Virus record (IMG/VR): IMGVR_UViG_3300045918_000071
Location: 1-40,173 of that record
Strand: one strand, 5' to 3'
Length of the DNA: 40,173 nucleotides
Source: a virus
This document shows, in pieces, positions 2,164 through 38,980 of the stretch (within the stretch, counting starts at the first letter, position 1; the number at the start of each line of letters is the position of its first letter). The translations under genes and the position numbers were made by a program. The notes beneath the pieces are model-generated. The model was not told where the DNA came from. It was given only the letters and a program-made list of their open reading frames with translations, and did no database searches.

Positions 2164-2446
2164 TGATCACCACCATTCTCTGACCGAAAAACACCACCTT
2201 CTCAGCATCGTAGACACCGTCCGTGTAGCCACGCTTGACCAGACCCTGCCGTGCAGAACAGCTGCGCCAGATTGCCTTGAACGCGTTACCCTCGGCAAAG
2301 TTCATCTGCAGCGCCTCAATGATATCGTTGCACTCAGCTGTGTAAGATAAGTTACCTGACAGCGGGTCGGACACTTTGACCTTGTAATAGCTCACTGAGC
2401 CGCCGGTGTACTCAGGTGTGTGCAGTCCTTCAGCTTGGTCTTTCAT
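2150..2446 (-). CDS. Conserved phage protein near DNA polymerase (98 aa)
   Basis: The protein contains YYKVKVSDPLSG, then AECNDIIEALQMNFAEG, then an aromatic/basic tail ending in AEKVVFFGQRMV. It resembles a small protein commonly found beside polymerase genes in podovirus and siphovirus replication modules, with no known biochemistry. A GGGAG site lies upstream, and the ATG overlaps the polymerase C-fragment stop. No catalytic motif is seen. Confidence 0.7.
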   Translation of the reverse strand: MKDQAEGLHTPEYTGGSVSYYKVKVSDPLSGNLSYTAECNDIIEALQMNFAEGNAFKAIWRSCSARQGLVKRGYTDGVYDAEKVVFFGQRMVVINGRP

Positions 2447-3021
2447 CTCGTTCTCCCGTTAAACAATGTGATACATTCTACCAGCTTTTTCGCCTCGCGG
2501 ATGTAGTATTCGTAATTTATATCGCTGAACGTCATACCGCTCAGCCGGTTGGCGATCATCACCGTCCACCCTGTGTGGATGCCGGTGCGGACTTCCTGAT
2601 ACATGCTACGGTTCTTGGTGTGAATGCGCTCGTCCCATACACCCTCACCGATCTCCTCCATCACCTGCTCATAGTATGAGTCGGTCAGCTTGTTGGCACG
2701 CTTGAAGCCGGTACCCTTGGCAGGTGCGATCTTCTCCAAGGTGTCACCGTCGGTCGAGATGTAGTACCGGATGACGTTCGGAATCTTCACCCCGCCCCAC
2801 TCCAGCACGTTCGCGCGTGGCACCTTGGTGCGCAGGAGGAAGTCGTACACGTCATCATGGTTCTCGATGACCTCACGGATGTCCTCACCTCGCACCAGTG
2901 CAGCCTCTGCTGCCTTGGCAACGACACGCGCTGACCAGTCCTTATGATGAGGTAGCTCACGTGTGCCGGGCTTCTCCATGGCTGTCTGGTAGGCGTAGCA
3001 GCCTATGCGCTTGACGTACAT
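2443..3021 (-). CDS. Family B DNA polymerase, C-terminal (thumb) fragment
   Basis: The 192 residues match the C-terminal region of phage family B polymerases: YVKRIGCYAY, then HKDWSARVVAKAAEAALV, then YDFLLRTKVPRAN, then a RYYISTDGD..EKI segment. This is the part that follows the catalytic palm and forms the thumb. It lacks exonuclease and palm motifs, which are in the separate gene at 3687-5117. An AAGGAG ribosome-binding site lies 7-8 nt before the ATG, inside the end of the homing endonuclease gene. An in-frame TAA directly abuts the ATG, so it must start here as its own polypeptide. The two fragments presumably assemble into one working enzyme, as reported for the split polymerases of some Aeromonas T4-like phages; that is inference here. 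Confidence 0.88.
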   Translation of the reverse strand: MYVKRIGCYAYQTAMEKPGTRELPHHKDWSARVVAKAAEAALVRGEDIREVIENHDDVYDFLLRTKVPRANVLEWGGVKIPNVIRYYISTDGDTLEKIAPAKGTGFKRANKLTDSYYEQVMEEIGEGVWDERIHTKNRSMYQEVRTGIHTGWTVMIANRLSGMTFSDINYEYYIREAKKLVECITLFNGRTR

Positions 3022-3674
3022 TTATCTCTCCTTATCACTCTGAATCCTTTACATACCGCGTCACTTACCGATCTACGATGGTATGTACTAAGAACGCTTC
3101 CAATCCTTAACTCTAACAACCTATTGTATTTGCAGAACTCGACTTCACCTGTAGGGTGATGAACTTCATATTCATATTTAGTTTTTAAATGTGAAAATAA
3201 CTCTCCCTGTATCCTGACTCTTTCAGGGTCACTAGCCCACTTCTTTTTAAGTTTTTCAGAATGTCCATCTCTGATGCCAGCCGCCCACTGTCTCTTTAAA
3301 TTTTCACTCATTTTCAGACTTGTTTCGGGCGACGTGACCATCCCTGTACTGCTATCCATTCTCAAGTTATAACCAAACTGTCTATCAGTTGACCCTGACT
3401 TTTTCATCCAGTACAACTCTCGTTCTGAAATAACATCGAGAGAACAAAACTCGAGAGGAACCATCTCAAAATTATCAATTCCGTCCTTGACCATCGCTCT
3501 GTATAGATAGTCGTTTAAATGTCCTAATGCTCTGAATTCAAAGTCATATAGGTACTGATGACACCTCTTGTACATACACTTGGTTCTACCTATATATATT
3601 TTTCCATTTATAAGGTTTCTTATCCCATAAATGACGGGTCGGTTTTTTAAAAGCAAGTTTGGTTTCATCATCAC
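3003..3674 (-). CDS. GIY-YIG homing endonuclease inserted in the polymerase gene
   Basis: The 223-residue protein has an N-terminal GIY-YIG domain: VIYGIRN (GIY) then KIYIGRTK (YIG), R-H rich helices, and an E in ISERELYW as the likely metal ligand. A NUMOD3-like DNA-binding segment (SPETSLKMSENLKRQW, about residues 120-140) and a C-terminal helix-turn-helix-like part follow. It is clearly more AT-rich than the polymerase halves. No convincing ribosome-binding site precedes the ATG; it lies 12 nt after the polymerase N-fragment stop and may be translated by reinitiation. Only about 12 nt upstream are non-coding, so there is no room for a group I intron. It is best seen as a free-standing Seg-like homing gene that split its host gene. 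Confidence 0.88.
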   Translation of the reverse strand: MMMKPNLLLKNRPVIYGIRNLINGKIYIGRTKCMYKRCHQYLYDFEFRALGHLNDYLYRAMVKDGIDNFEMVPLEFCSLDVISERELYWMKKSGSTDRQFGYNLRMDSSTGMVTSPETSLKMSENLKRQWAAGIRDGHSEKLKKKWASDPERVRIQGELFSHLKTKYEYEVHHPTGEVEFCKYNRLLELRIGSVLSTYHRRSVSDAVCKGFRVIRRDKCTSSA

Positions 3675-3686
3675 AGTGTAATGTAG

Positions 3687-5117
3687 TTATTCACTAACCG
3701 CAATGTAATTATTAACATCTTTTACAAACATGCGTGAGTACAGCGCCTCCTCCAGATGCAGCTTGGTGACGCTCTCCCACCACCGGCACAATGACCTGAC
3801 ATGGTCGAGGTACTCTCGAGGGCACAGGCACGTCACACCGTCGGTATTCGCCTGTATCATGCGCAGTCCTGGCACCTTGATCATTTGCTCGATCAGCATG
3901 CACAGCAGCAGCTGACCGTTGATAGTGATCGCCATGGTGTAGGCCATGTCGAGGAATGGACTGTGCTCGTTGTTGGACCCGCCATACGCACCATTAAGCG
4001 CCAGCTTGTACGCCTCATTCTCTGGTGTCTTCTTTGGGAACGTCTTACGGGTTTCGTACACACTCAGGTACGCATTGCAGAACTCAGTACCGAGGTGCTC
4101 AGGGTAGAGGTTGTTCTGGATACCCAGATTTGGGTAGTATGATCCAACATCGTTATCAATCAATAGGTTACGTTCATCTGAGTAGACCGCCTCCCCGTCC
4201 ACTGAGCCATGCAACCCTCCCGTGCCGAAGTAGTAAGTCAGGCCACCGACGCTGGCCGACAGATCGGTGAACACACCCTTCGTCTCGGTGATCGTCTGGG
4301 CTGCGAGCCACTGGTGGATCCGGTGGAACTCAGGATGCTCCAGCTTGACATACGGGAAGATGACATCAGCAAGTGCCAGTGATGTACGGATAGTTTGCTT
4401 CTTCTGTTTCCGGTTGGATGAGTCACGGTAGTAACAGCTGACCCCATGCTTCTCCATCTCAGTCACCAGCAGCGTCTCACCGATCTTCACATCGGACATG
4501 TTGGTCATATCGATACCGAACGATGCACTCAGGTCGGCTCGCAGCTTCAGTGCCGACAGCGACTCCCGATAGAACAACATTGTCGCCTCAACGTCGTGCC
4601 AGTTGTACTCGATCAAGGTGTCGATCTGCTCACTGGTCAGCACTGTGCCGACCTCAAACGGTAGATCCTCGACAGAGTCCATACGCATGTTGAACTCCAG
4701 CACCTTCAGGCTGGTCATCTTGGCCTTGTTGTCGAAGTGGTGAACCTTGAACAGATCCACTTGGGATACGATACGGTCACGGTCCCAGATGATGTGGCCG
4801 AACTCACCAAAATTATTGATGATCGACATCGCCTTGGCATAGATATCATGGCAGGTGATGAACTCGTACCCGTAGATGTAGTGCAGCACGGGGTAATCGA
4901 AGCCGACGTTATTGAAACCGACCATGCGACAGCCCTGCTGACGGAGCGTGTCTAGCCAGTCGCAGAGTGCGTCGTACTGATTGCGGCGATCACTGATCTC
5001 GAACTGCCAGCGTGTGCCGTTGGTGTGCTCAGCACAGAGTGTGAACGCGTTGGGGAATGTTTCAATATCATAAGTGATGTCGCCCGGTGTGACGCCAAAG
5101 ATGAAGTCAGGCTCCAC
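3687..5117 (-). CDS. Family B DNA polymerase, N-terminal (exonuclease and palm) fragment
   Basis: This 476-residue fragment carries the 3'-5' exonuclease motifs DIETFPN (Exo I, residues 17-23), GFNNVGFDYP (Exo II) and YNWHDVEAT (Exo III). The polymerase motifs are DNDVGSYYPNL (A), KLALNGAYGG (B) and QANTDGVTCL (C). It ends at KDVNNYIAVSE, just past the KxY-type motif, where the homing endonuclease is inserted. It therefore has the catalytic residues but no thumb. I choose the GTG at 5117 because AGGAG lies 8 nt upstream and the small zinc protein gene overlaps it; an earlier GTG at 5195 has no ribosome-binding site. It is the replicative polymerase, working with the fragment at 2443-3021. Confidence 0.88.
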   Translation of the reverse strand: MEPDFIFGVTPGDITYDIETFPNAFTLCAEHTNGTRWQFEISDRRNQYDALCDWLDTLRQQGCRMVGFNNVGFDYPVLHYIYGYEFITCHDIYAKAMSIINNFGEFGHIIWDRDRIVSQVDLFKVHHFDNKAKMTSLKVLEFNMRMDSVEDLPFEVGTVLTSEQIDTLIEYNWHDVEATMLFYRESLSALKLRADLSASFGIDMTNMSDVKIGETLLVTEMEKHGVSCYYRDSSNRKQKKQTIRTSLALADVIFPYVKLEHPEFHRIHQWLAAQTITETKGVFTDLSASVGGLTYYFGTGGLHGSVDGEAVYSDERNLLIDNDVGSYYPNLGIQNNLYPEHLGTEFCNAYLSVYETRKTFPKKTPENEAYKLALNGAYGGSNNEHSPFLDMAYTMAITINGQLLLCMLIEQMIKVPGLRMIQANTDGVTCLCPREYLDHVRSLCRWWESVTKLHLEEALYSRMFVKDVNNYIAVSE

Positions 5118-5241
5118 GGCGTAATCTCCTGAGGTATCCACTGCCGATGTTGACGCAAGGTGGCGCGTCGTCGCTGATGTCCCACGACTTGCCACATTTT
5201 TTACAGTATACGGTATCGCATACCCTGTAGGTATTGTGCAT
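5107..5241 (-). CDS. Small zinc-ribbon-like protein (44 aa) before the polymerase
   Basis: The ORF starts at an ATG with an ATAAGGAG site 7 nt upstream and encodes MHNTYRVCDTVYCKKCGKSW, continuing DISDDAPPC. The CxxC pair plus a later C resembles half of a treble-clef or zinc-ribbon, and similar 40-80 residue CxxCGK.W proteins are common in phage replication operons. Its stop overlaps the polymerase GTG start by 11 nt, consistent with coupled translation. Function is unknown; a DNA- or protein-binding accessory role is a guess. Confidence 0.65.
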   Translation of the reverse strand: MHNTYRVCDTVYCKKCGKSWDISDDAPPCVNIGSGYLRRLRRGA

Positions 5242-5265
5242 TATTGTCTCCTTATAGTTCCCCGC

Positions 5266-5288
5266 ATAGCCCACTGTCACTGGGCTAT
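5266..5288 (-). promoter_or_regulatory. Intergenic hairpin between mazG-like and zinc-ribbon genes
   Basis: An 8-bp perfect stem (ATAGCCCA / TGGGCTAT) with a 7-nt loop sits in the 55-nt gap upstream of the 5107-5241 gene. It lacks a following U tract on either strand, so a simple intrinsic terminator is unlikely. It may be an RNA stability or processing element. Confidence 0.45.
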
Positions 5289-5296
5289 ATGTGGTG

Positions 5297-5896
5297 CTAT
5301 TTATCAGCTCTTTCCTGTGCAGCCTTGTCGGAGTAACCTGCCTTGTAACGCAGCATCAGTTTTTCCATGTTGGCTGCGATGACTTTATCACGACTGATAC
5401 CCGTCTCAGCATAGATATGTTCAAACTCTTTGTCGAATGTCGCGATAAGTCGACGCAACTGCTGCTTATCCAGAGCTTTATTGTAGACTGTGTGCTTCTT
5501 GACGTGATCGAGGATGTTACCCGCGATGACGATGATCGACCCGCCTTCAATCGGTTCACCTGCACCCGGCAACATCATCTTCAGACCTTCCAAAAAGAAC
5601 TCACAATCGCCAATTTCCTCCACGATGTGAGCAGGGTCGGTAGCATCAAACAGCTCAGCCACCTCACCACTCAGTCCGACAGCCATGTGAAGCAGGTTAC
5701 ACTTCTCAGGTGTCAGTGTCGCGAGGATGTCAGCACCGGGCTTGATCATACCTTTGACGAACTCACCATAAATGTTAGATGGTGTGATCTTATTTGATTG
5801 ACAGTTCACTTCAGCCGCCTTGGCTTTTGCCAGTTCGACAAAGTCAACCACGTGTGGATCGTCAACCGACTCTCCGTTCTTTAATATCATTGTCAT
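5297..5896 (-). CDS. MazG-like nucleotide pyrophosphohydrolase
   Basis: The 199-residue protein has the all-alpha NTP pyrophosphohydrolase signature: GLSGEVAELFDA, then HIVEEIGDCEFFLEG, giving the ExxE and EExxD metal-binding set. A second helical segment ends in ANMEKLMLRYKAGYSDKAA, which is typical of phage MazG-like enzymes. Such enzymes hydrolyse (d)NTPs to the monophosphate and pyrophosphate, for example to remodel the nucleotide pool or lower alarmone signals; which substrate applies here is unknown. Its ATG overlaps the HU gene stop (ATGA). Confidence 0.85.
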   Translation of the reverse strand: MTMILKNGESVDDPHVVDFVELAKAKAAEVNCQSNKITPSNIYGEFVKGMIKPGADILATLTPEKCNLLHMAVGLSGEVAELFDATDPAHIVEEIGDCEFFLEGLKMMLPGAGEPIEGGSIIVIAGNILDHVKKHTVYNKALDKQQLRRLIATFDKEFEHIYAETGISRDKVIAANMEKLMLRYKAGYSDKAAQERADK

Positions 5897-14761: not shown

Positions 14762-15072
14762 ACTATTTATTGATCATCTGACCGTCTGACCGTGTATTTT
14801 TGGAGAATATCCTTATTTTTCATATATATGCTAGAGTGTCTATAATTTTAATTGTGGTTTAGTATAGGAATATATAGCTTAAGGATATGTGAAGTTGTTA
14901 ATAGTATGATATAGTGTATTTCACATGTGCTTAACGCATGTTTTCCAGAGGTTATCGTCGGAAAAAAATTAAAGACTTGAAAACAGCCCTTTTTTCGGGT
15001 TAAGTGGTTGATTACAAAGGGGAAAGGTATCTGACACGATTTGGTGTTCATCTGACATGGAGAGGTAAGTAT
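14762..15072. other. AT-rich divergent non-coding region
   Basis: This stretch lies between the leftward early genes and the rightward HNH genes and is visibly AT-rich. It holds a direct repeat of TGACCGT (about 14779-14792), a TATAAT hexamer at 14841-14846 on the plus strand without a good -35, a TTGAAA at about 14977 with only a poor -10 at 17 nt, and a CCC-N7-GGG mini-hairpin near 14988-15000. TGATTACAAAGG occurs twice, near 15009 and 15074. The rightward promoter must be here but cannot be fixed. An origin or control region is possible. I see no credible gene. Confidence 0.6.
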
Positions 15073-15633
15073 ATGATTACAAAGGAACAAATGGCGGAGC
15101 ATGTGGACTACAATCCACTGACCGGTGGGTTCACCTACGTTTTCGGTTCGGCTAAGGTTGGTCGGATGCGTGGTCGACCTGCGGGGGTGCGTGGTCAGCA
15201 CGGTGTGATCAACATTAAAATCGACGGGCGCACAATCGGTGGTCACCGGCTTGCGTGGTTGTCGATTTACGGCGAGTACCCGAACTTCAGCATCGAGCAT
15301 ATCGACGGTGACAAGGGCAACAACAAGATCGACAACCTGCGGCGACTCAGCAGAGGGTACGATATGCCTGCGCTTACTCGAGATAAGTTGTTGTCTGAGT
15401 ATACCTACAGAGATGGTGAGATTTTGAGAGATGGTGAGATTGTCAAAGGCTCAATCATCAACGGATACAGAGTGATATTTATCGACGGTGAAAATCATTA
15501 TTTACAAAGGTTGGTATGGTGGTATCACCACGAGATTCATGGGTTGAGGAGGATATATCACATCAACGGTGTGAAGCGGGACAACCGGATCGAAAACCTT
15601 AAAGCAACTTATGAGAAAGTGAGCTTTTTATGA
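15073..15633 (+). CDS. HNH-family endonuclease with two tandem HNH units
   Basis: From MITKEQMAEHVDYNPLTGGF the 186-residue protein contains two copies of the phage HNH_3-type unit: HRLAWLSIYGEYP...IEHIDGDKGNNKIDNLR (first) and LQRLVWWYHHEIHG...IYHINGVKRDNRIENLK (second). The catalytic-type H before I(D/N)G is present in both. The GGAGAG site favours the ATG at 15073. It is the first gene of the rightward operon and is coupled by ATGA to the next HNH gene. Such genes are often mobile; a packaging role next to terminase is also possible. Confidence 0.82.
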   Translation: MITKEQMAEHVDYNPLTGGFTYVFGSAKVGRMRGRPAGVRGQHGVINIKIDGRTIGGHRLAWLSIYGEYPNFSIEHIDGDKGNNKIDNLRRLSRGYDMPALTRDKLLSEYTYRDGEILRDGEIVKGSIINGYRVIFIDGENHYLQRLVWWYHHEIHGLRRIYHINGVKRDNRIENLKATYEKVSFL

Positions 15634-31696: not shown

Positions 31697-34600
31697 ATGC
31701 CAAAGATTGATATTCAAGCTGCACTCCGTGATGGTTATTCGCAAAAAGATATTCTGGACGGGATGGGTAAGGCTGGATATCTTGACGGTTATGATATCAG
31801 TGCGATGCGCAAGGATGGGTATTCCGATGGTGACATTCTCTCAGGATTGGCATCCGTATTCCAACCTGCAGCACCCAGACCAGAGAAGCCCGAGCAGGGT
31901 GACTTCGGTCGCGGGTTCGTAAATACATTCAAACAACTTCCCCAATTACTCAACGGACTTGTAGCCGGTGAGGCTGCGGTGGGTGAGAAGATATTCGGTA
32001 AAGGTGGTGCATGGACTGGTGCGAAAAATGATGCAGTCACTGCATACAAAGCTGCAAGTGAAGACCTCGCTACGAACTCCAAACAATCTGACTCACTGAC
32101 CTATTCATGGGATCAAGCTAAGCAGGGTAACTACGGTTCATTGGTGGACTGGTTACAATACGGTATCGGTTATTCAATCGGCCAAGGTGTACAGATGCTG
32201 GCCACAGGTGGCGTAGGTTCAGTAGCAGGTAAGGCTGCACTCAAAGGAGTTGCTGAACAGACTGCGAGAGGGATGGTCGCGAAAGAAGTAGCAGCGATCA
32301 CATCAAGCGCGGCGGGTAAAGCGATGAGTGCTGAAGCAGTGCAGCAGGCGGCAGTGCAGTCTGTTGCCGCAAACATTGGTCAGAAAGTTGCACTGGGGCA
32401 CGCCGCTGTCGGCATGGAAGGCGGTGAGATTTTTGGTGATCTCATATCCAATAACCCAGACGCCAGCGGCGCGGATCTCGCGAAGGCGTTCGTCGCCACA
32501 ATGGGAGCAGGTGCACTTGAATTCGTTGGTGACAAGATAGGTCTTGACTTGATGCTCGGTAAGGGCGTAGGCAAGTTGGCAAAGTCGCGGGCAGTAAACG
32601 CAGCAGTCGGTGGTGCTGCAGGTATCGCGACCGAAGGTGGCACCGAATACTTCCAGACAGGTCTTGAGGAATACGGCAAGGGTAACGAGTCTGCTCTGGT
32701 ACCGTTCATGCAATCCGAAGCAGCACAGACTCAAGCGTTTGACGCTGCGGGTCTTGGTGCTCTCGGGGGTGCAGCGATGGGTGGTGTCGGTGGAGCAATA
32801 GCTAAACCACAAGGATTACTCAAACAAGAAACACAAGAGAAGATCGCCACCGCACCAACCGTCGATGCGGCTATTGAGGCAGCAGAAGCAGCAGTCACCC
32901 TGTCCACCATAGACAGCCTCGTTGACCAGAAGGATCAACTGGTGTCGGATGAGTACGCCGCAGCCACTCGTCAGAGCGGTTACGCAGCTCCTATCGCTGA
33001 ACCGTCTACCGAGCCGCTGATCGTCACCGGTCGCACTGACTCACAAATTGAAGCTGAGGAAATCCTTCTTGCCCAGTCTGCTGTGCTGAAGGGTACAGCG
33101 ACTGAAGCTCAGAAAGAGCTTGCCGACCGACCATTACCCACTGTGGAGTTATTCGATGGTAGCCAGAACAACGTACCTGCCAGTAAACTTGTGGATCGAA
33201 GAGGTGTACCTTTCGGGGAACCTAACTCAGAAGGAGTCACTGGAACTGGCGTTCGCGGAGATGGCGATGGAATTTCCGTTGCAGACTCGTACCGCGCTCG
33301 AAAAAGTGAGCCTGTTCCAGTATCAGGGTCGACTGCAGTAGCGACAGTCGCAGGTCAGGTTGCCACCAACGACACGATCCAAGTCGACAGTAATGGTGTC
33401 GCATCCAACCAGCCGATCGACAATGCACCAAAAGTAACGAAGCCTGACTCAGTGCCGTCACAAGTATCACTGCACACTGTGACCACTGACAAAGGGCAGC
33501 TGGCGCTGTCACCGACTGATAAGGGTAAGGCGAACCTGCCAGCCATCCGTGAGGAACTAAAGGCTGCGGGACTGTCTGTCGGTCAGCGTAAGTCGGACGG
33601 GATGTTGCTGATCAGTAATAAGTCAGACCCTGCGCTCGTAGCCACTACAGTGAAGGCAATCAACGCGAAATTCAGTGATGACCGGGTCGATGCAAGCCTT
33701 GACGAGATCCGTGGTGAGAGTCAGTCACCGACGATTGAAGCCCCTGCACCTACTACTGAGCCACGCCCAGCAGGTATCGTTGCGAACACTGACGCATCAC
33801 TACTCAAGTCAGCAGGTGCAACAGGTGTTCGTATCCACAAAGCGCACCAGCTTGGTGACACTGAGGGTACGACTCGCACGACAAAGGCACGTGCAGCAAT
33901 CATTGAACGAGTCGCCAAGATGTTCGGTCGCGAGGTAGTGTTATTCTCATCGGCCACACCCACGGCCGACGGTATGTATAGTTCAGGTAATAAGCTGTAC
34001 GTCAACATTGATTCGTCGGTCGATCCAATGGCGGTCGCCGGCCATGAGTTTCGGCACTCTCTGAAGGGTACACCAGGACATGATGCGATCAACGCTGCTG
34101 CAGTAAAGATCCTCAAGCAGAGTGACACGATGGTGAAGTTTGCCAATTCGTACCTAACGCGTGCTGAGAATAAGCCGATGCTGGACCGCTTCAATGAAGG
34201 CACTCATAATGATGAAGATGTGAAGTTCCTCGCTGAAGAGTACAGCGCAGATATCACCGGCAACCTGTGGCGCGACCCTGCAGCACTGAAGGACATCTTC
34301 AACCACATTGCCACCGAGTATCCAGTCTCAAAGGCCCGTGCACTGATACAGCAGATCGGTGATGCTGTCACCAAGTTCATCAACCAGCTGCTGGCTCGCG
34401 GCGGGTTCCAAGAGTTCGTGTCACGTGACGAGCTGGTTGAGCTGAAGACCGAGATCAAGAAGGCGATGACTGATGCGTACATCGCTGCCGACCGTGCCAA
34501 GCTGACTGGTAAGAAGGATCACGTCATCGATACGAACGGCTGGAAGTTCAGCCCGGTGAAACGGAAACCTCACTGGTCAGATGAGTCTACCGGTAAGCAG

Positions 34601-37600
34601 GTGTCAGAAAAACTAGTCAAAGTAAACGACATCGACGAGTCACGTGAACTGGCGTCATCTCAGATATGGCGCAAGGGTCGCGACTTGAAGATCGCTCTCG
34701 ATGCGCGTATTCAGATGGCTGCAAAAGCTGCAAAGGTTGACTTGAGTGAGAAGACTCCTGAGACATTGAAGTTCCTCCAGAATCGTGCAGTTGTTGAAAT
34801 TGAGGCGGCGATTAAAACTAATCCTGGTGCAATCGGTTGGTATGACGAGACAGTCACTGAGGCGTTCAGAATCTTAGGGTACATTCACCCTGAGCTGAAT
34901 ACTGACCAGCATGCACGGTTCGCGTTCACATGGGCGCTTGCAGTTACATCCAATGGTATGAAGGTCGACAAGAATTTTGAACTGGCTGAGCATGCTTATG
35001 AATCCTACAAGTTGACCGGTAAAATGCCGACGACCATCGGTATCGGTACTGCCGCTGAAGCGATCAACAACAGCTTATCGTTATTTAATAAGACCAAAAA
35101 GTCGTCGACACTTGAGCAGATGCAGTTGTTCATGACAACCAAAACTACAGTCAAGTCGTTGATATCAGACGGGTACAAGATATCAGGTGAAGGTACAACT
35201 ACTGAAGTGTTTGGTGCAGCAATCCTCGGCGCAAAGATCGGTAACGGATTCTTCATGAACCTGTACGGTGAGTTCGGCCAGCTGACAATGGATCGATGGT
35301 TGATGCGCACGTTCGGTAGATGGACTGGCACACTGGTACATGTCGACAGAGATGCTGTGATTGAGAAGCGTACCAAGCTGAAAGCAATCATTCAGTCAAT
35401 GACATTGACTGAAAGGAAGCAGTTTGCAGGGGTGCTCGGTATAAAGTCATTGGCAGGTAATACTGATGACATCGGTGCACTCATCCAGAAGAAGTCGATG
35501 AAAGAAGACATCAGAGCATTGATGTCGGCAGTCGCACCACGTGATACGTCTGCCTTCGATGAGTTCCTCGGCAAAGCAAAATCAAACCAAGTACGTATCA
35601 GCGCGGGTGATGAACTCCGCAAGATGGGTAACGGGTTGACCATGTCGCATGACGGTCAGAAGGAGGCACCGGCAGGTTCTGGAGAGCGTGATTTTATCCG
35701 CGCAATATTCGCTGGTGCAATGAAGGAATTGGTAGTAAAGTATCCTGACCTGACTGTCGCAGATGCACAGGCATTGCTGTGGTACCCAGAGAAGAAGCTG
35801 TATGAATTAGCCAAAGTGGACGACACAAAAAATGACTACGAAGACAATGAAGCACCAGACTATGCCAACGCAGCAGCAAAACTCGCCAGAGCAAAAGGAA
35901 TATCTTTTCCACCCAAGACCGCTGGACGAGCAGCAGATATTCGATCTGGAAAACGAGAACAACGATCTGGATATGATAGCCCAAAATATAGCCAATCGCG
36001 CATCCTCTTTGAAGTAGCACCGGATCCTCACGATACCGAGCTGACATCTGCATGGAACAAACAGTCTAACGACGAGAAGATAAAACTCAGCAATGATGTA
36101 GCTGAAACTGTCGTCAAAAAACTGCTCGACCAGATGCACGTCAAAGGTGAGATGTCGCTGCAGATTGGTGGATACATGGGCGAGTCTAACCCATCATTCA
36201 CTATCACACTGGAAAACGGAAACCCTGACGAAGTCGCAAAGGCTGCGGGGTTTGTGCTATCACAGGACATGATGATCGCGGTCAGCGAAACGCCATTCGA
36301 CGGTGGTCACAATACAGGTGCAGTCACATTCAACCTGAATGGTGATGATGCGACCGAAGTGTACAAAAAGATATACGCAGGTGTCCCAGAAGCCGAAGGT
36401 CATACGACAGTCGACGGGGTCATGACGATTATCAACAATCCTGACATCGGTATATCAACAGCAGATCTGGCCAATAAAATTGACAGAGTGTTGAACAATG
36501 TTTATCATATGGATGTGTGGAATAACGCATACGCATCATTCCCAACATCTAAGGAGTACGGATATGTCAGTGACAATCAGGGACATCAAGGATTTACCAG
36601 CAGATCACCCGCTGCGCAAGGGGTTAGTGATCTTCGTGCCGAGACCAACCGTCTCATCGCAGAAAAGCTCGGAGTCAAATTCTCAGCAGGGCGTTCACCC
36701 GATGCAGTCAGCAGTGGACGAGATGGAGTCACACCTGACGCAGAAGGCGTAAAGGCTCGAGGGGTTCACTACTCCAAAGAGCAGCGCAGCACGCTGAACT
36801 CGTCAGCTTTCGGCTCCGGTCTGAAGGGTGAGGAGCTGGCGCGTGTACGCAATGCAGCAGATGACCGGATCAAACACCGGATCTACTTCTACGTCAATGG
36901 TGGTCGTGGTATCAACCCTGAGTCTGGGGTTGGTGCTCACGCACACGAAGCTGACCTGAACAACCTCTACGACATCGACGCCAACCCGCTTGACTTATCC
37001 ACAGCAGACAAGAACATGATGGAGTCCCGCGTCCTTGATGCAGGATTCGACGGTTACGTGTCGCCTGAACGCGGTATCGCGATCATGCTGGGTCAGCGTG
37101 CGATGCAGGTTGAGTACAAAGGTACAGGCCGTCCAGAAGTGGTAGCAGTGCAGCGCGGCCAGAAGTCGACATACGGACAGCAGCAGGCTGAGGTGAGTGC
37201 GAGCAAGAGTCTCCCGGCAGGCCAGATGAAGGGTTCTGACTGGAAACGCATGATGAAGGCGCTGATACCTCAGATTGACGTGTCACACCTCAATGATGAC
37301 ACGACCTACTACCGGTCAGAGATCGTCGCTAAACCGAAGATGTCATCAGTTCGCGATGCTCTGCATACCAAGGTCAATGAATATTATGATGACGCGAAGG
37401 CTGAGTACGCTGCAATAGAAGGTACTGAGGGTGGGCGACTTATCAACACCGACCTCGCACGTGAGCTGTCAGAACATTACCGTGCTGACCGCACCCTGTC
37501 GAACGAAGTGCATGAGCCATCAAGCGTATTTGTGAAGAAGCTATACACAGACCTGCTGGCTCAGGATACACCTGACAACAAGATGTCGGTTGTACTATTC

Positions 37601-38980
37601 ATGGCCGGTGGCACGGGTGCAGGTAAGTCAAGCAGTCTGGCTATCCCCACAATCGCGTCCATCGCGAAGAAGGCTGAAATCGTCTACGACTCCACGATGA
37701 GTAATTTCAGGTCATCAGTCGCGAAGATCGATCAGGCGCTGGCGGCGGGCCGAGGTGTGTGGATAAACTACGTGTATCGCGAACCTGTCGACTCCCTAGT
37801 GAACGGTGCACTACCTCGTGCCATGGTCGAAGGTCGCACTGCGCCGTTGTCAGCTCACCACAAGACTCACGTCGGTGCGAACAAAGTCATCCGTCAACTG
37901 GCCGAACACTATGCTGGGAACCCGCGCGTCGGTTTCAAGATTGTGGATAATTCAAGAGGTCGAGGCAATCAGGCTGAAATCGACTTGACAAGTATGACAA
38001 TGTTGAACGATAATGAAGTCAAGGAGAAATTACATCATGAACTCGAAAAAGAATATCAAGCCGGTCGAATCTCAGAGTCAGTCTATAAGGCCACCAAAGG
38101 TCAAGAAGATGACGGACGAGGAGTTTCAGAAGTTCGGAAATCAAGTGACAGCGGAGTTGGTACGGAACCTCAAACGGATCAAGCCAAACTAAGCACTCGA
38201 CGGTTCTACTCTCAACTGTCTAACGCAGTCGAGGCTGCACCTGACCGTATGTTCACTACAGGCAAGGCCACTGCGGCATGGTTGCAGGCTAACACATCGA
38301 AGCTCGGCATCAAGGCTGACGAGCTGTACTGGTCAGGTGCACTCGACTGGATGACGGGTCAGGCGCGTGTGACCAAGGGTGACGTCGTGTCGTTCCTCAA
38401 GGGTAACGGTGTGCAGATCAAAGAGGTGCTCAAGTCGAAGCAGGAGTTCAACCCTGACGAGCCTACGCTCCCTGACGGCATGACTGTCGAACCGATCACT
38501 GATGATGAGCGCAATGAAGAGGGCGGCGCATGGAAGCGCAACGATTATGTCCTGCGTGATGCTAACGGTCATGCGCTCGGCCTGGGTAAGTCCAGCAGTG
38601 ATGCAATCGTTGACGGTCAAGCTGGGTATCCTGAACTGTTCGAGGGTGAGGATACCACCAAGTTCGGCAGTTATGTGTTGCCGGGCGGCAAGAACTACCG
38701 TGAGTTGCTGATGACTGTACCTGCAAATTACAAGGAAGAAAATTCACAGCAGTTCAAGTCCCCCCACTATGATGAACCGAACATCATCGCACACCTGCGC
38801 ATGGATGATCGAGTCGACTCGTCTGGTGCTAAAACTCTAATGATTCAGGAAATTCAGAGCGACTTTGGCCAAGCGTACAAGAAGCAGACTGACGCAATCA
38901 ACAAGTCGGTCGATGATGACTTCCTTGGTATAGTCGAACGGATGAAGCAAGCCGGTGAACTTCAGGTAGAATGCGATTAA
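31697..38980 (+). CDS. Giant polyvalent protein (2427 aa): metallopeptidase-like, ART-like and zeta-toxin modules
   Basis: Modules in order: GYSxxDIL-type repeats (residues 10-60); a Gly/Ala-rich, membrane-active-looking region (about 80-375); disordered linkers; a small alpha/beta region (about 590-665); a zincin-like site HEFRH (783-787) with EEYSAD (847-852) as probable third ligand; a helical domain (about 988-1403) ending in a WYPEKKLYEL motif like DUF7178; an APDP domain (about 1437-1623); an ART-like domain starting GVHYSK (H1691) with HRIYFYVNGG; a zeta-toxin kinase with P-loop GGTGAGKS (1971-1978); and the first part of a further domain (2169-2427, GALDWM...IQEIQSDFGQ). Such proteins are carried in the virion and injected. 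The last domain is cut and continues in the next gene. GAAGGA precedes the ATG. Confidence 0.85.
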   Translation: MPKIDIQAALRDGYSQKDILDGMGKAGYLDGYDISAMRKDGYSDGDILSGLASVFQPAAPRPEKPEQGDFGRGFVNTFKQLPQLLNGLVAGEAAVGEKIFGKGGAWTGAKNDAVTAYKAASEDLATNSKQSDSLTYSWDQAKQGNYGSLVDWLQYGIGYSIGQGVQMLATGGVGSVAGKAALKGVAEQTARGMVAKEVAAITSSAAGKAMSAEAVQQAAVQSVAANIGQKVALGHAAVGMEGGEIFGDLISNNPDASGADLAKAFVATMGAGALEFVGDKIGLDLMLGKGVGKLAKSRAVNAAVGGAAGIATEGGTEYFQTGLEEYGKGNESALVPFMQSEAAQTQAFDAAGLGALGGAAMGGVGGAIAKPQGLLKQETQEKIATAPTVDAAIEAAEAAVTLSTIDSLVDQKDQLVSDEYAAATRQSGYAAPIAEPSTEPLIVTGRTDSQIEAEEILLAQSAVLKGTATEAQKELADRPLPTVELFDGSQNNVPASKLVDRRGVPFGEPNSEGVTGTGVRGDGDGISVADSYRARKSEPVPVSGSTAVATVAGQVATNDTIQVDSNGVASNQPIDNAPKVTKPDSVPSQVSLHTVTTDKGQLALSPTDKGKANLPAIREELKAAGLSVGQRKSDGMLLISNKSDPALVATTVKAINAKFSDDRVDASLDEIRGESQSPTIEAPAPTTEPRPAGIVANTDASLLKSAGATGVRIHKAHQLGDTEGTTRTTKARAAIIERVAKMFGREVVLFSSATPTADGMYSSGNKLYVNIDSSVDPMAVAGHEFRHSLKGTPGHDAINAAAVKILKQSDTMVKFANSYLTRAENKPMLDRFNEGTHNDEDVKFLAEEYSADITGNLWRDPAALKDIFNHIATEYPVSKARALIQQIGDAVTKFINQLLARGGFQEFVSRDELVELKTEIKKAMTDAYIAADRAKLTGKKDHVIDTNGWKFSPVKRKPHWSDESTGKQVSEKLVKVNDIDESRELASSQIWRKGRDLKIALDARIQMAAKAAKVDLSEKTPETLKFLQNRAVVEIEAAIKTNPGAIGWYDETVTEAFRILGYIHPELNTDQHARFAFTWALAVTSNGMKVDKNFELAEHAYESYKLTGKMPTTIGIGTAAEAINNSLSLFNKTKKSSTLEQMQLFMTTKTTVKSLISDGYKISGEGTTTEVFGAAILGAKIGNGFFMNLYGEFGQLTMDRWLMRTFGRWTGTLVHVDRDAVIEKRTKLKAIIQSMTLTERKQFAGVLGIKSLAGNTDDIGALIQKKSMKEDIRALMSAVAPRDTSAFDEFLGKAKSNQVRISAGDELRKMGNGLTMSHDGQKEAPAGSGERDFIRAIFAGAMKELVVKYPDLTVADAQALLWYPEKKLYELAKVDDTKNDYEDNEAPDYANAAAKLARAKGISFPPKTAGRAADIRSGKREQRSGYDSPKYSQSRILFEVAPDPHDTELTSAWNKQSNDEKIKLSNDVAETVVKKLLDQMHVKGEMSLQIGGYMGESNPSFTITLENGNPDEVAKAAGFVLSQDMMIAVSETPFDGGHNTGAVTFNLNGDDATEVYKKIYAGVPEAEGHTTVDGVMTIINNPDIGISTADLANKIDRVLNNVYHMDVWNNAYASFPTSKEYGYVSDNQGHQGFTSRSPAAQGVSDLRAETNRLIAEKLGVKFSAGRSPDAVSSGRDGVTPDAEGVKARGVHYSKEQRSTLNSSAFGSGLKGEELARVRNAADDRIKHRIYFYVNGGRGINPESGVGAHAHEADLNNLYDIDANPLDLSTADKNMMESRVLDAGFDGYVSPERGIAIMLGQRAMQVEYKGTGRPEVVAVQRGQKSTYGQQQAEVSASKSLPAGQMKGSDWKRMMKALIPQIDVSHLNDDTTYYRSEIVAKPKMSSVRDALHTKVNEYYDDAKAEYAAIEGTEGGRLINTDLARELSEHYRADRTLSNEVHEPSSVFVKKLYTDLLAQDTPDNKMSVVLFMAGGTGAGKSSSLAIPTIASIAKKAEIVYDSTMSNFRSSVAKIDQALAAGRGVWINYVYREPVDSLVNGALPRAMVEGRTAPLSAHHKTHVGANKVIRQLAEHYAGNPRVGFKIVDNSRGRGNQAEIDLTSMTMLNDNEVKEKLHHELEKEYQAGRISESVYKATKGQEDDGRGVSEVRKSSDSGVGTEPQTDQAKLSTRRFYSQLSNAVEAAPDRMFTTGKATAAWLQANTSKLGIKADELYWSGALDWMTGQARVTKGDVVSFLKGNGVQIKEVLKSKQEFNPDEPTLPDGMTVEPITDDERNEEGGAWKRNDYVLRDANGHALGLGKSSSDAIVDGQAGYPELFEGEDTTKFGSYVLPGGKNYRELLMTVPANYKEENSQQFKSPHYDEPNIIAHLRMDDRVDSSGAKTLMIQEIQSDFGQAYKKQTDAINKSVDDDFLGIVERMKQAGELQVECD
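35832..36017 (+). CDS. Candidate embedded ORF a, out of frame in the giant gene
   Basis: A 61-residue reading in another frame gives ...PEQKEYLFHPRPLDEQQIFDL then DMIAQNIANRASSLK, which looks like a folded, acidic protein. The giant's own frame is here a low-complexity linker (RSGKREQRSGYDS). No ribosome-binding site is seen. Confidence 0.35.
   Translation: MTTKTMKHQTMPTQQQNSPEQKEYLFHPRPLDEQQIFDLENENNDLDMIAQNIANRASSLK
36564..36752 (+). CDS. Candidate embedded ORF b, out of frame in the giant gene
   Basis: A 62-residue reading starts MSVTIRDIKDLPADHPLRKG after AAGGAG with about 7 nt spacing, as good as any site in the operon. The main frame at this point is the linker between the APDP domain and the ART-like domain. 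Function is unknown; translation needs testing. Confidence 0.5.
   Translation: MSVTIRDIKDLPADHPLRKGLVIFVPRPTVSSQKSSESNSQQGVHPMQSAVDEMESHLTQKA
38037..38192 (+). CDS. Candidate embedded ORF c, out of frame in the giant gene
   Basis: A 51-residue, lysine-rich reading starts MNSKKNIKPVESQSQSI and contains MTDEEFQKFGNQVTAELV. AAGGAG lies 10 nt upstream. It covers the end of the zeta-toxin domain and the low-complexity linker after it. Confidence 0.45.
   Translation: MNSKKNIKPVESQSQSIRPPKVKKMTDEEFQKFGNQVTAELVRNLKRIKPN

Follow-up and report, generated by a model that had tools for sequence, protein, structure and literature searches.

The stretch of viral DNA analysed here (the window) is a record of 40,173 bases, in which the reading frame of a family B DNA polymerase is divided between two genes on the minus strand, with an endonuclease gene between them. 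In the order in which they are transcribed, the features of the locus are as follows.

5126..5130, minus strand: AGGAG, predicted ribosome-binding site of the N-fragment (sequence, duplex energy)
3687..5117, minus strand: N-fragment of the family B DNA polymerase, 476 aa (phrog_1252, E 1.7e-153; alignment with intact homologues)
3700..3713, minus strand: AATAATTACATTGC, the NNYIA codons of the N-fragment and probable endonuclease target region (in relatives, the gene carries group I introns directly upstream)
3678..3691, minus strand: AATAACTACATTAC, a target-like sequence at the upstream edge of the insert, overlapping the N-fragment stop (12/14 match to the NNYIA codons; kept in related inserts)
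3003..3671, minus strand: GIY-YIG homing endonuclease gene, about 222 aa (Pfam, PHROG, catalytic columns)
3028..3033, minus strand: AAGGAG, predicted ribosome-binding site of the C-fragment, within the endonuclease ORF (sequence, Shine-Dalgarno energy)
2443..3021, minus strand: C-fragment of the family B DNA polymerase, 192 aa, thumb and C-terminal part (phrog_15833, E 6.6e-37; C-terminal part of phrog_1252, E 2.6e-25)

The N-fragment runs from a GTG at 5117 to a TAA at 3687, carries the exonuclease, motifs A, B and C and a KxY-like strand, and ends in KDVNNYIAVSE*; the Shine-Dalgarno duplex energy at its start is -7.4. The endonuclease ORF has three candidate starts (GTG 3674, ATG 3671 and ATG 3668) and stops at 3003, overlapping the C-fragment ORF by 19 nt. 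Its start lacks a ribosome-binding site of its own, as judged by anti-Shine-Dalgarno duplex energies of +0.9 to +1.9. The C-fragment starts at ATG 3021 with MYVKRIGCYAY, and its AAGGAG pairs with the anti-Shine-Dalgarno sequence at -9.3 kcal/mol; intact homologues average -3.1 at the corresponding position. A preliminary description had proposed a polymerase cut in two by a GIY-YIG gene, with the AAGGAG inside that gene, an in-frame TAA adjoining the ATG of the C-fragment, and only about 12 nt of non-coding sequence. Every one of these elements is present, the non-coding stretch being 12 nt after the N-fragment stop, or 18 nt if the endonuclease begins at ATG 3668.

Almost nothing appears to be missing from the polymerase, since the two fragments together cover nearly all of PHROG 1252 (DNA polymerase, 663 positions), the N-fragment positions 53-508 and the C-fragment positions 513-652. 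The alignment with intact homologues that had been suggested as a check runs end to end with nothing lost: when the joined fragments are set against intact Vibrio phage polymerases, KDVNNYIAVSE / MYVKRIGCYAY lies opposite RDVNNYMAETTEGKLKRIGAYAY, and the join differs by 0-2 residues at the turn. The family B hallmarks DxETFPN, NDVGSYYPN, KLALNGAYG and NTDG are all found in this alignment, and the C-fragment is matched over at least 80% of its length by 318 phage records. A second intact polymerase had been named as evidence that would count against the proposal; a six-frame search of the whole 40,173-base record, which may be incomplete, found none. The phage itself is a metagenomic contig without close relatives: megablast of window positions 1-25000 gave no match, and a search of genome contigs gave a single weak relative.

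The gene between the fragments matches the Pfam GIY-YIG family above the curated cut-off (E 3.6e-06) and a PHROG homing endonuclease family (E 2.3e-23). Residues Y14, G27, R35, E84 and N101 are invariant across relatives, and the first G of GIY is a V in the window. Among close relatives the insertion site is polymorphic for presence and absence, being for example intact in ZCEC13 and occupied in KpTRp1, and likewise intact in L055 and L062 and occupied in L042. On these matches the insert is a free-standing GIY-YIG homing endonuclease gene, whose product is presumed to cleave and to home.

Could the insert instead be a group I or II intron, unrecognised or highly degenerate, with its core overlapping the endonuclease ORF, so that splicing yields a single polypeptide? 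Relatives of the endonuclease are indeed encoded by group I introns in the polB genes of crAss-like and Flavobacterium phages, with one class located some 10 codons 5' of the point where the window's polymerase is split, and compact introns with overlapping ORFs exist. However, Rfam scans for group I and II introns at permissive thresholds were empty both over window positions 2400-5300 and in seven other split loci, while the same scans detected both halves of the group I core in two phages with relatives of the window endonuclease inside polB, crAss-like cr3_1 (E 1.7e-9 and 3.6e-4) and Flavobacterium FPSV-S29 (E 3.5e-10 and 0.004). Core motifs (AGAGACTA / TAGTC) lie on either side of most endonuclease copies that are carried in introns, and of 0/12 intronless copies. 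The 12-18 nt of non-coding sequence leave little outside the reading frames, and both fragments have ribosome sites and start codons that a spliced gene would not need. A hidden intron is therefore rejected and splicing is improbable, in keeping with the original claim that no group I intron is present.

What, then, does the break do to the enzyme? It had been placed after motif C (NTDG) and the KxY-like strand, at the border of palm and thumb, and the alignment and an AF2 model of an intact homologue (L009; 38 sequences, pLDDT 89, pTM 0.84) both bear this out. A Foldseek search with the model ranked family B polymerases at the top (E 3.9e-16). The break maps to L009 residues 483-486, between strands 477-482 and 487-490, and is thus predicted to be in the turn of a beta-hairpin. 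Considering that the broken loop is a hairpin turn, and that the flanking strands and domains stay whole, the fragments presumably rebuild the polymerase.

The split might nevertheless mark a dead or decaying polymerase, with the phage relying on a host enzyme or on some other polymerase. An endonuclease does interrupt an essential gene here, and another polymerase could lie outside the record if the window is incomplete. Decay is hard to reconcile with the intact catalytic motifs and the two intact reading frames of the window, with the ribosome sites of the C-fragments, or with the persistence of the split across lineages. Between split Klebsiella Jedunavirus phages, the N-fragment has a dN/dS of 0.00-0.22 and the C-fragment one of 0.03-0.24, far below 1 and similar to the values in intact pairs, which indicates that both fragments are under purifying selection in these relatives. 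Moreover, the complete genome of JD001, an isolated, plaque-forming virulent phage, has a split polB and no other annotated DNA polymerase. We consider a dead enzyme an unlikely account of the locus. Joining of the pieces by protein trans-splicing has a precedent of sorts in Pseudomonas phage MIJ3, where a split PolB with an endonuclease between its halves carries intein halves and trans-splicing has been proposed (PMC6892783). The window's three ORFs contain no Hint or intein domain detectable with Pfam or PHROG, and the fragments end and begin at exactly homologous residues without extra sequence, so a split intein is excluded for all practical purposes. An assembly or sequencing artefact, which the reliance on one metagenomic contig might suggest, is scarcely credible, given that the same arrangement occurs on the independent contigs L042, L043 and L063 and in isolate genomes, with the same or other endonucleases. 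With the hairpin-turn position of the break, the purifying selection on both halves and the lone split polB of JD001, a two-piece enzyme is the best explanation. Very probably, then, the family B polymerase of this phage has been split by an intronless GIY-YIG insertion and its pieces presumably assemble; that they form an active enzyme is something we infer.

The same turn is split in many Klebsiella Jedunavirus isolates, an Acinetobacter phage and a number of metagenomic phages. Orthologous GIY-YIG genes lie at this point in six further IMG/VR loci (L042, L043, L063, L106, L107 and L108), a second GIY-YIG lineage in L086 and L137 (with NUMOD3 detected in L086), and an HNH gene in L034. In L084 the fragments are separated by a 164-nt spacer with a 48-codon Cys-rich ORF and no recognisable endonuclease. 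A further GIY-YIG relative sits at the turn in Acinetobacter phage phiAB441. The Klebsiella Jedunavirus phages JD001, KpV79, FZ14, pKp383, KpTRp1, RCIP0047 and BUCT_49532 share with the window the split point, an intervening endonuclease, and a C-fragment with its own start and ribosome site. Unlike in the window, their inserts are mostly T5orf172/MUG113 zinc-ribbon genes (FZ14, pKp383 and JustaPhage; KpV79 and JD001, judged by eye) or HNH genes (RCIP0047 and KpVB3; HNH with AP2 in BUCT_49532), while the KpTRp1 insert is of the GIY-YIG type and shares 42-46% identity with that of the window. The turn thus hosts at least four types of endonuclease: two GIY-YIG lineages, HNH and T5orf172/zinc-ribbon. 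C-fragment ribosome sites are predicted in nearly all split loci tested, the start in L107 being ambiguous.

Most homologues are unsplit, with an intact polymerase in about 65 of 80 IMG/VR loci. In a phylogeny of 83 polymerases, 9 changes of state are required to explain the split, all 9 forced by well-supported branches, and trees of the N-part and the C-part alone force 7 and 8; the changes counted may include losses. From these distributions the palm/thumb turn is a recurrent fission point across distant phages. Perhaps not every change of insert required a new break: several different Jedunavirus inserts share the N-fragment tail IMVIE, which makes endonuclease exchange at an already split locus possible within this group. 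DNA conservation at the split spot is ordinary (60th percentile), and the codons just upstream are in the top 7%. Our search of open-access papers found no account of this recurrent split, and since PHROG holds separate C-fragment families, split genes are already in databases without comment.

Several of these loci have peculiarities of their own. The JD001 insert (L101 2021-2860) is represented in the RefSeq annotation only by a 64-aa ORF, and we considered it as a decayed endonuclease; this was rejected, as a T5orf172-like frame of about 285 codons is open there. A further frame break in the N-fragment of phiAB441 (L091 2791-2914) was considered as evidence of a three-piece polymerase, a reading not adopted because the break resembles a frameshift, real or due to sequencing error. 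The intact polymerases of the Jedunavirus phages RCIP0054 (L098) and KpV52 (L104) are about 57% identical to split FZ14 in the N-part and 89-95% in the C-part, a step that we read as a recombination boundary near the split and homing site. In L109, L115 and L120, C-fragments that follow other GIY-YIG inserts have N-terminal extensions of about 20 residues, for example MTHDEEVKIIRNLISSGKIKTKG, as if adapting as separate proteins.

Where did the insert come from? In the endonuclease tree the window gene belongs to a clade (support 100/100) that mixes intronless (site-2) copies with intron-borne copies from crAss-like phages, whose introns sit in the polymerase gene at D-V|NNY, some 10 codons before the point at which the window's polymerase is split. 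A second clade contains intron-borne copies at motif A, and the gene-splitting copies of L086 and L137 are nested within it. The hypothesis that the intronless copies all arose once is rejected (p-AU 0.0003). The family thus seems to have switched between an intron-borne and a gene-splitting form on at least two occasions, whichever the direction. Two side observations concern other places in polB. At PolB motif A, Flavobacterium locus L089 (2524-3479) has a group I intron, containing a GIY-YIG gene, that L097 lacks; the sequences on either side of this intron match the empty allele of Fpv3 at 99.8-100% identity, and the first exon is annotated as a truncated gene. In the IMG/VR loci L144-L149, related GIY-YIG genes occupy a third place, between motifs A and B, where a search for the intron core motifs found none.

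The 21 nt from the N-fragment stop to the endonuclease start are conserved (AATAAYTRCATTACA) and resemble the NNYIA codons. The 12/14 match of this target-like leader in the window, L042 and L063 has a shuffle p of about 0.003-0.006, and the match is weak or absent in L106, KpTRp1 and L107 against their own targets. I-TevI is repressed via an upstream operator that resembles its own homing site (PMC2988022), which makes it plausible that the leader is a putative operator; alternatively, it would be a copy of the target made at insertion. We regard the leader as only a lead. A joint reading of these observations is possible, if somewhat short of probable: the hairpin turn would be a true hot spot, invaded by unrelated endonuclease families because its flanking codons are conserved and a break there is tolerated; one GIY-YIG lineage would alternate between intron-borne and intronless forms while keeping its target, with the conserved leader as an I-TevI-style operator; and some lineages would lose the endonuclease and keep the two-piece polymerase.

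The closest known parallel is gp43 of the Aeromonas T4-like phages 25 and 44RR, a family B polymerase likewise encoded in two cistrons (43A and 43B), with a GIY-YIG gene between them in phage 25. The phage 25 proteins co-purify and have polymerase activity (PMC2988022). The sites differ, a point missed by the preliminary description: the Aeromonas break precedes motif B and falls in the fingers, near T4 residue 510, while that of the window follows motif C and the KxY strand (T4 KKRY at 702). That description had called the window a different phage type from the Aeromonas cases; the remark understated the matter, as the same turn is split across distant phages. Unlike the window, 44RR (PMC2988022) and avDM3 have a mere non-coding spacer between the cistrons, so the endonuclease may have arrived second in the Aeromonas split. 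Phage 25 also has a group I intron; none was found in the window.

Intronless insertion of an endonuclease gene (mobE) has likewise divided an essential enzyme in Aeromonas phage Aeh1, where the product of the split nrdA stays active as two chains (PMC2988022); there the pair is a ribonucleotide reductase and an HNH-type endonuclease, here a polymerase and a GIY-YIG enzyme. The passage on Methanothermobacter thermautotrophicus in PMC7776575, which cites Kelman 1999, describes its PolB as two polypeptides; unlike the window's, this is a cellular archaeal enzyme, and that passage reports no endonuclease. The group I introns in the polB of crAss-like phages (cr3_1) and Flavobacterium phages put a homologous endonuclease in a homologous polymerase gene, as in the window, and because the full group I core is present there, splicing of the gene is expected in place of a split.

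The simplest mechanism is that a free-standing GIY-YIG gene, without a self-splicing intron, inserted into the palm-thumb hairpin turn of what would be the phage's only family B polymerase. The upstream part would end at a stop codon provided by the insert, and translation of the downstream part would begin from a Shine-Dalgarno site and start codon at the insert's 3' end; one operon would thereby yield two polypeptides, which presumably bind each other and restore the polymerase. The endonuclease may then spread when related phages infect the same cell, by cleaving their uninterrupted polB alleles at the conserved DVNNY-KxKRxG codons.

The split phage polymerases known before belong to a few T4-like phages and are broken in the fingers. 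In the present case another polymerase subfamily appears to have been split repeatedly, in independent events, at a single point that the structure explains; the endonucleases at this point come from different families, and the split occurs in isolates that can be grown. This makes it possible to ask what allows an essential replication enzyme to tolerate being cut in two, and whether intron-borne endonucleases gave rise to the gene-splitting ones; the palm/thumb turn is also a candidate place, already tried out in nature, at which to divide a polymerase into two parts. The Jedunavirus polymerase fragments are annotated as two polymerase genes or as hypothetical proteins, and the 'two polymerase genes' of these genomes should probably be read as one enzyme.

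Elsewhere in the window, whose genome is podovirus-like, the plus strand carries a 2427-aa ORF without a PHROG match (31697-38980) and, slightly upstream of the terminase genes, a gene (15004-15633) for a protein with two HNH-like stretches (phrog_99 and phrog_959).
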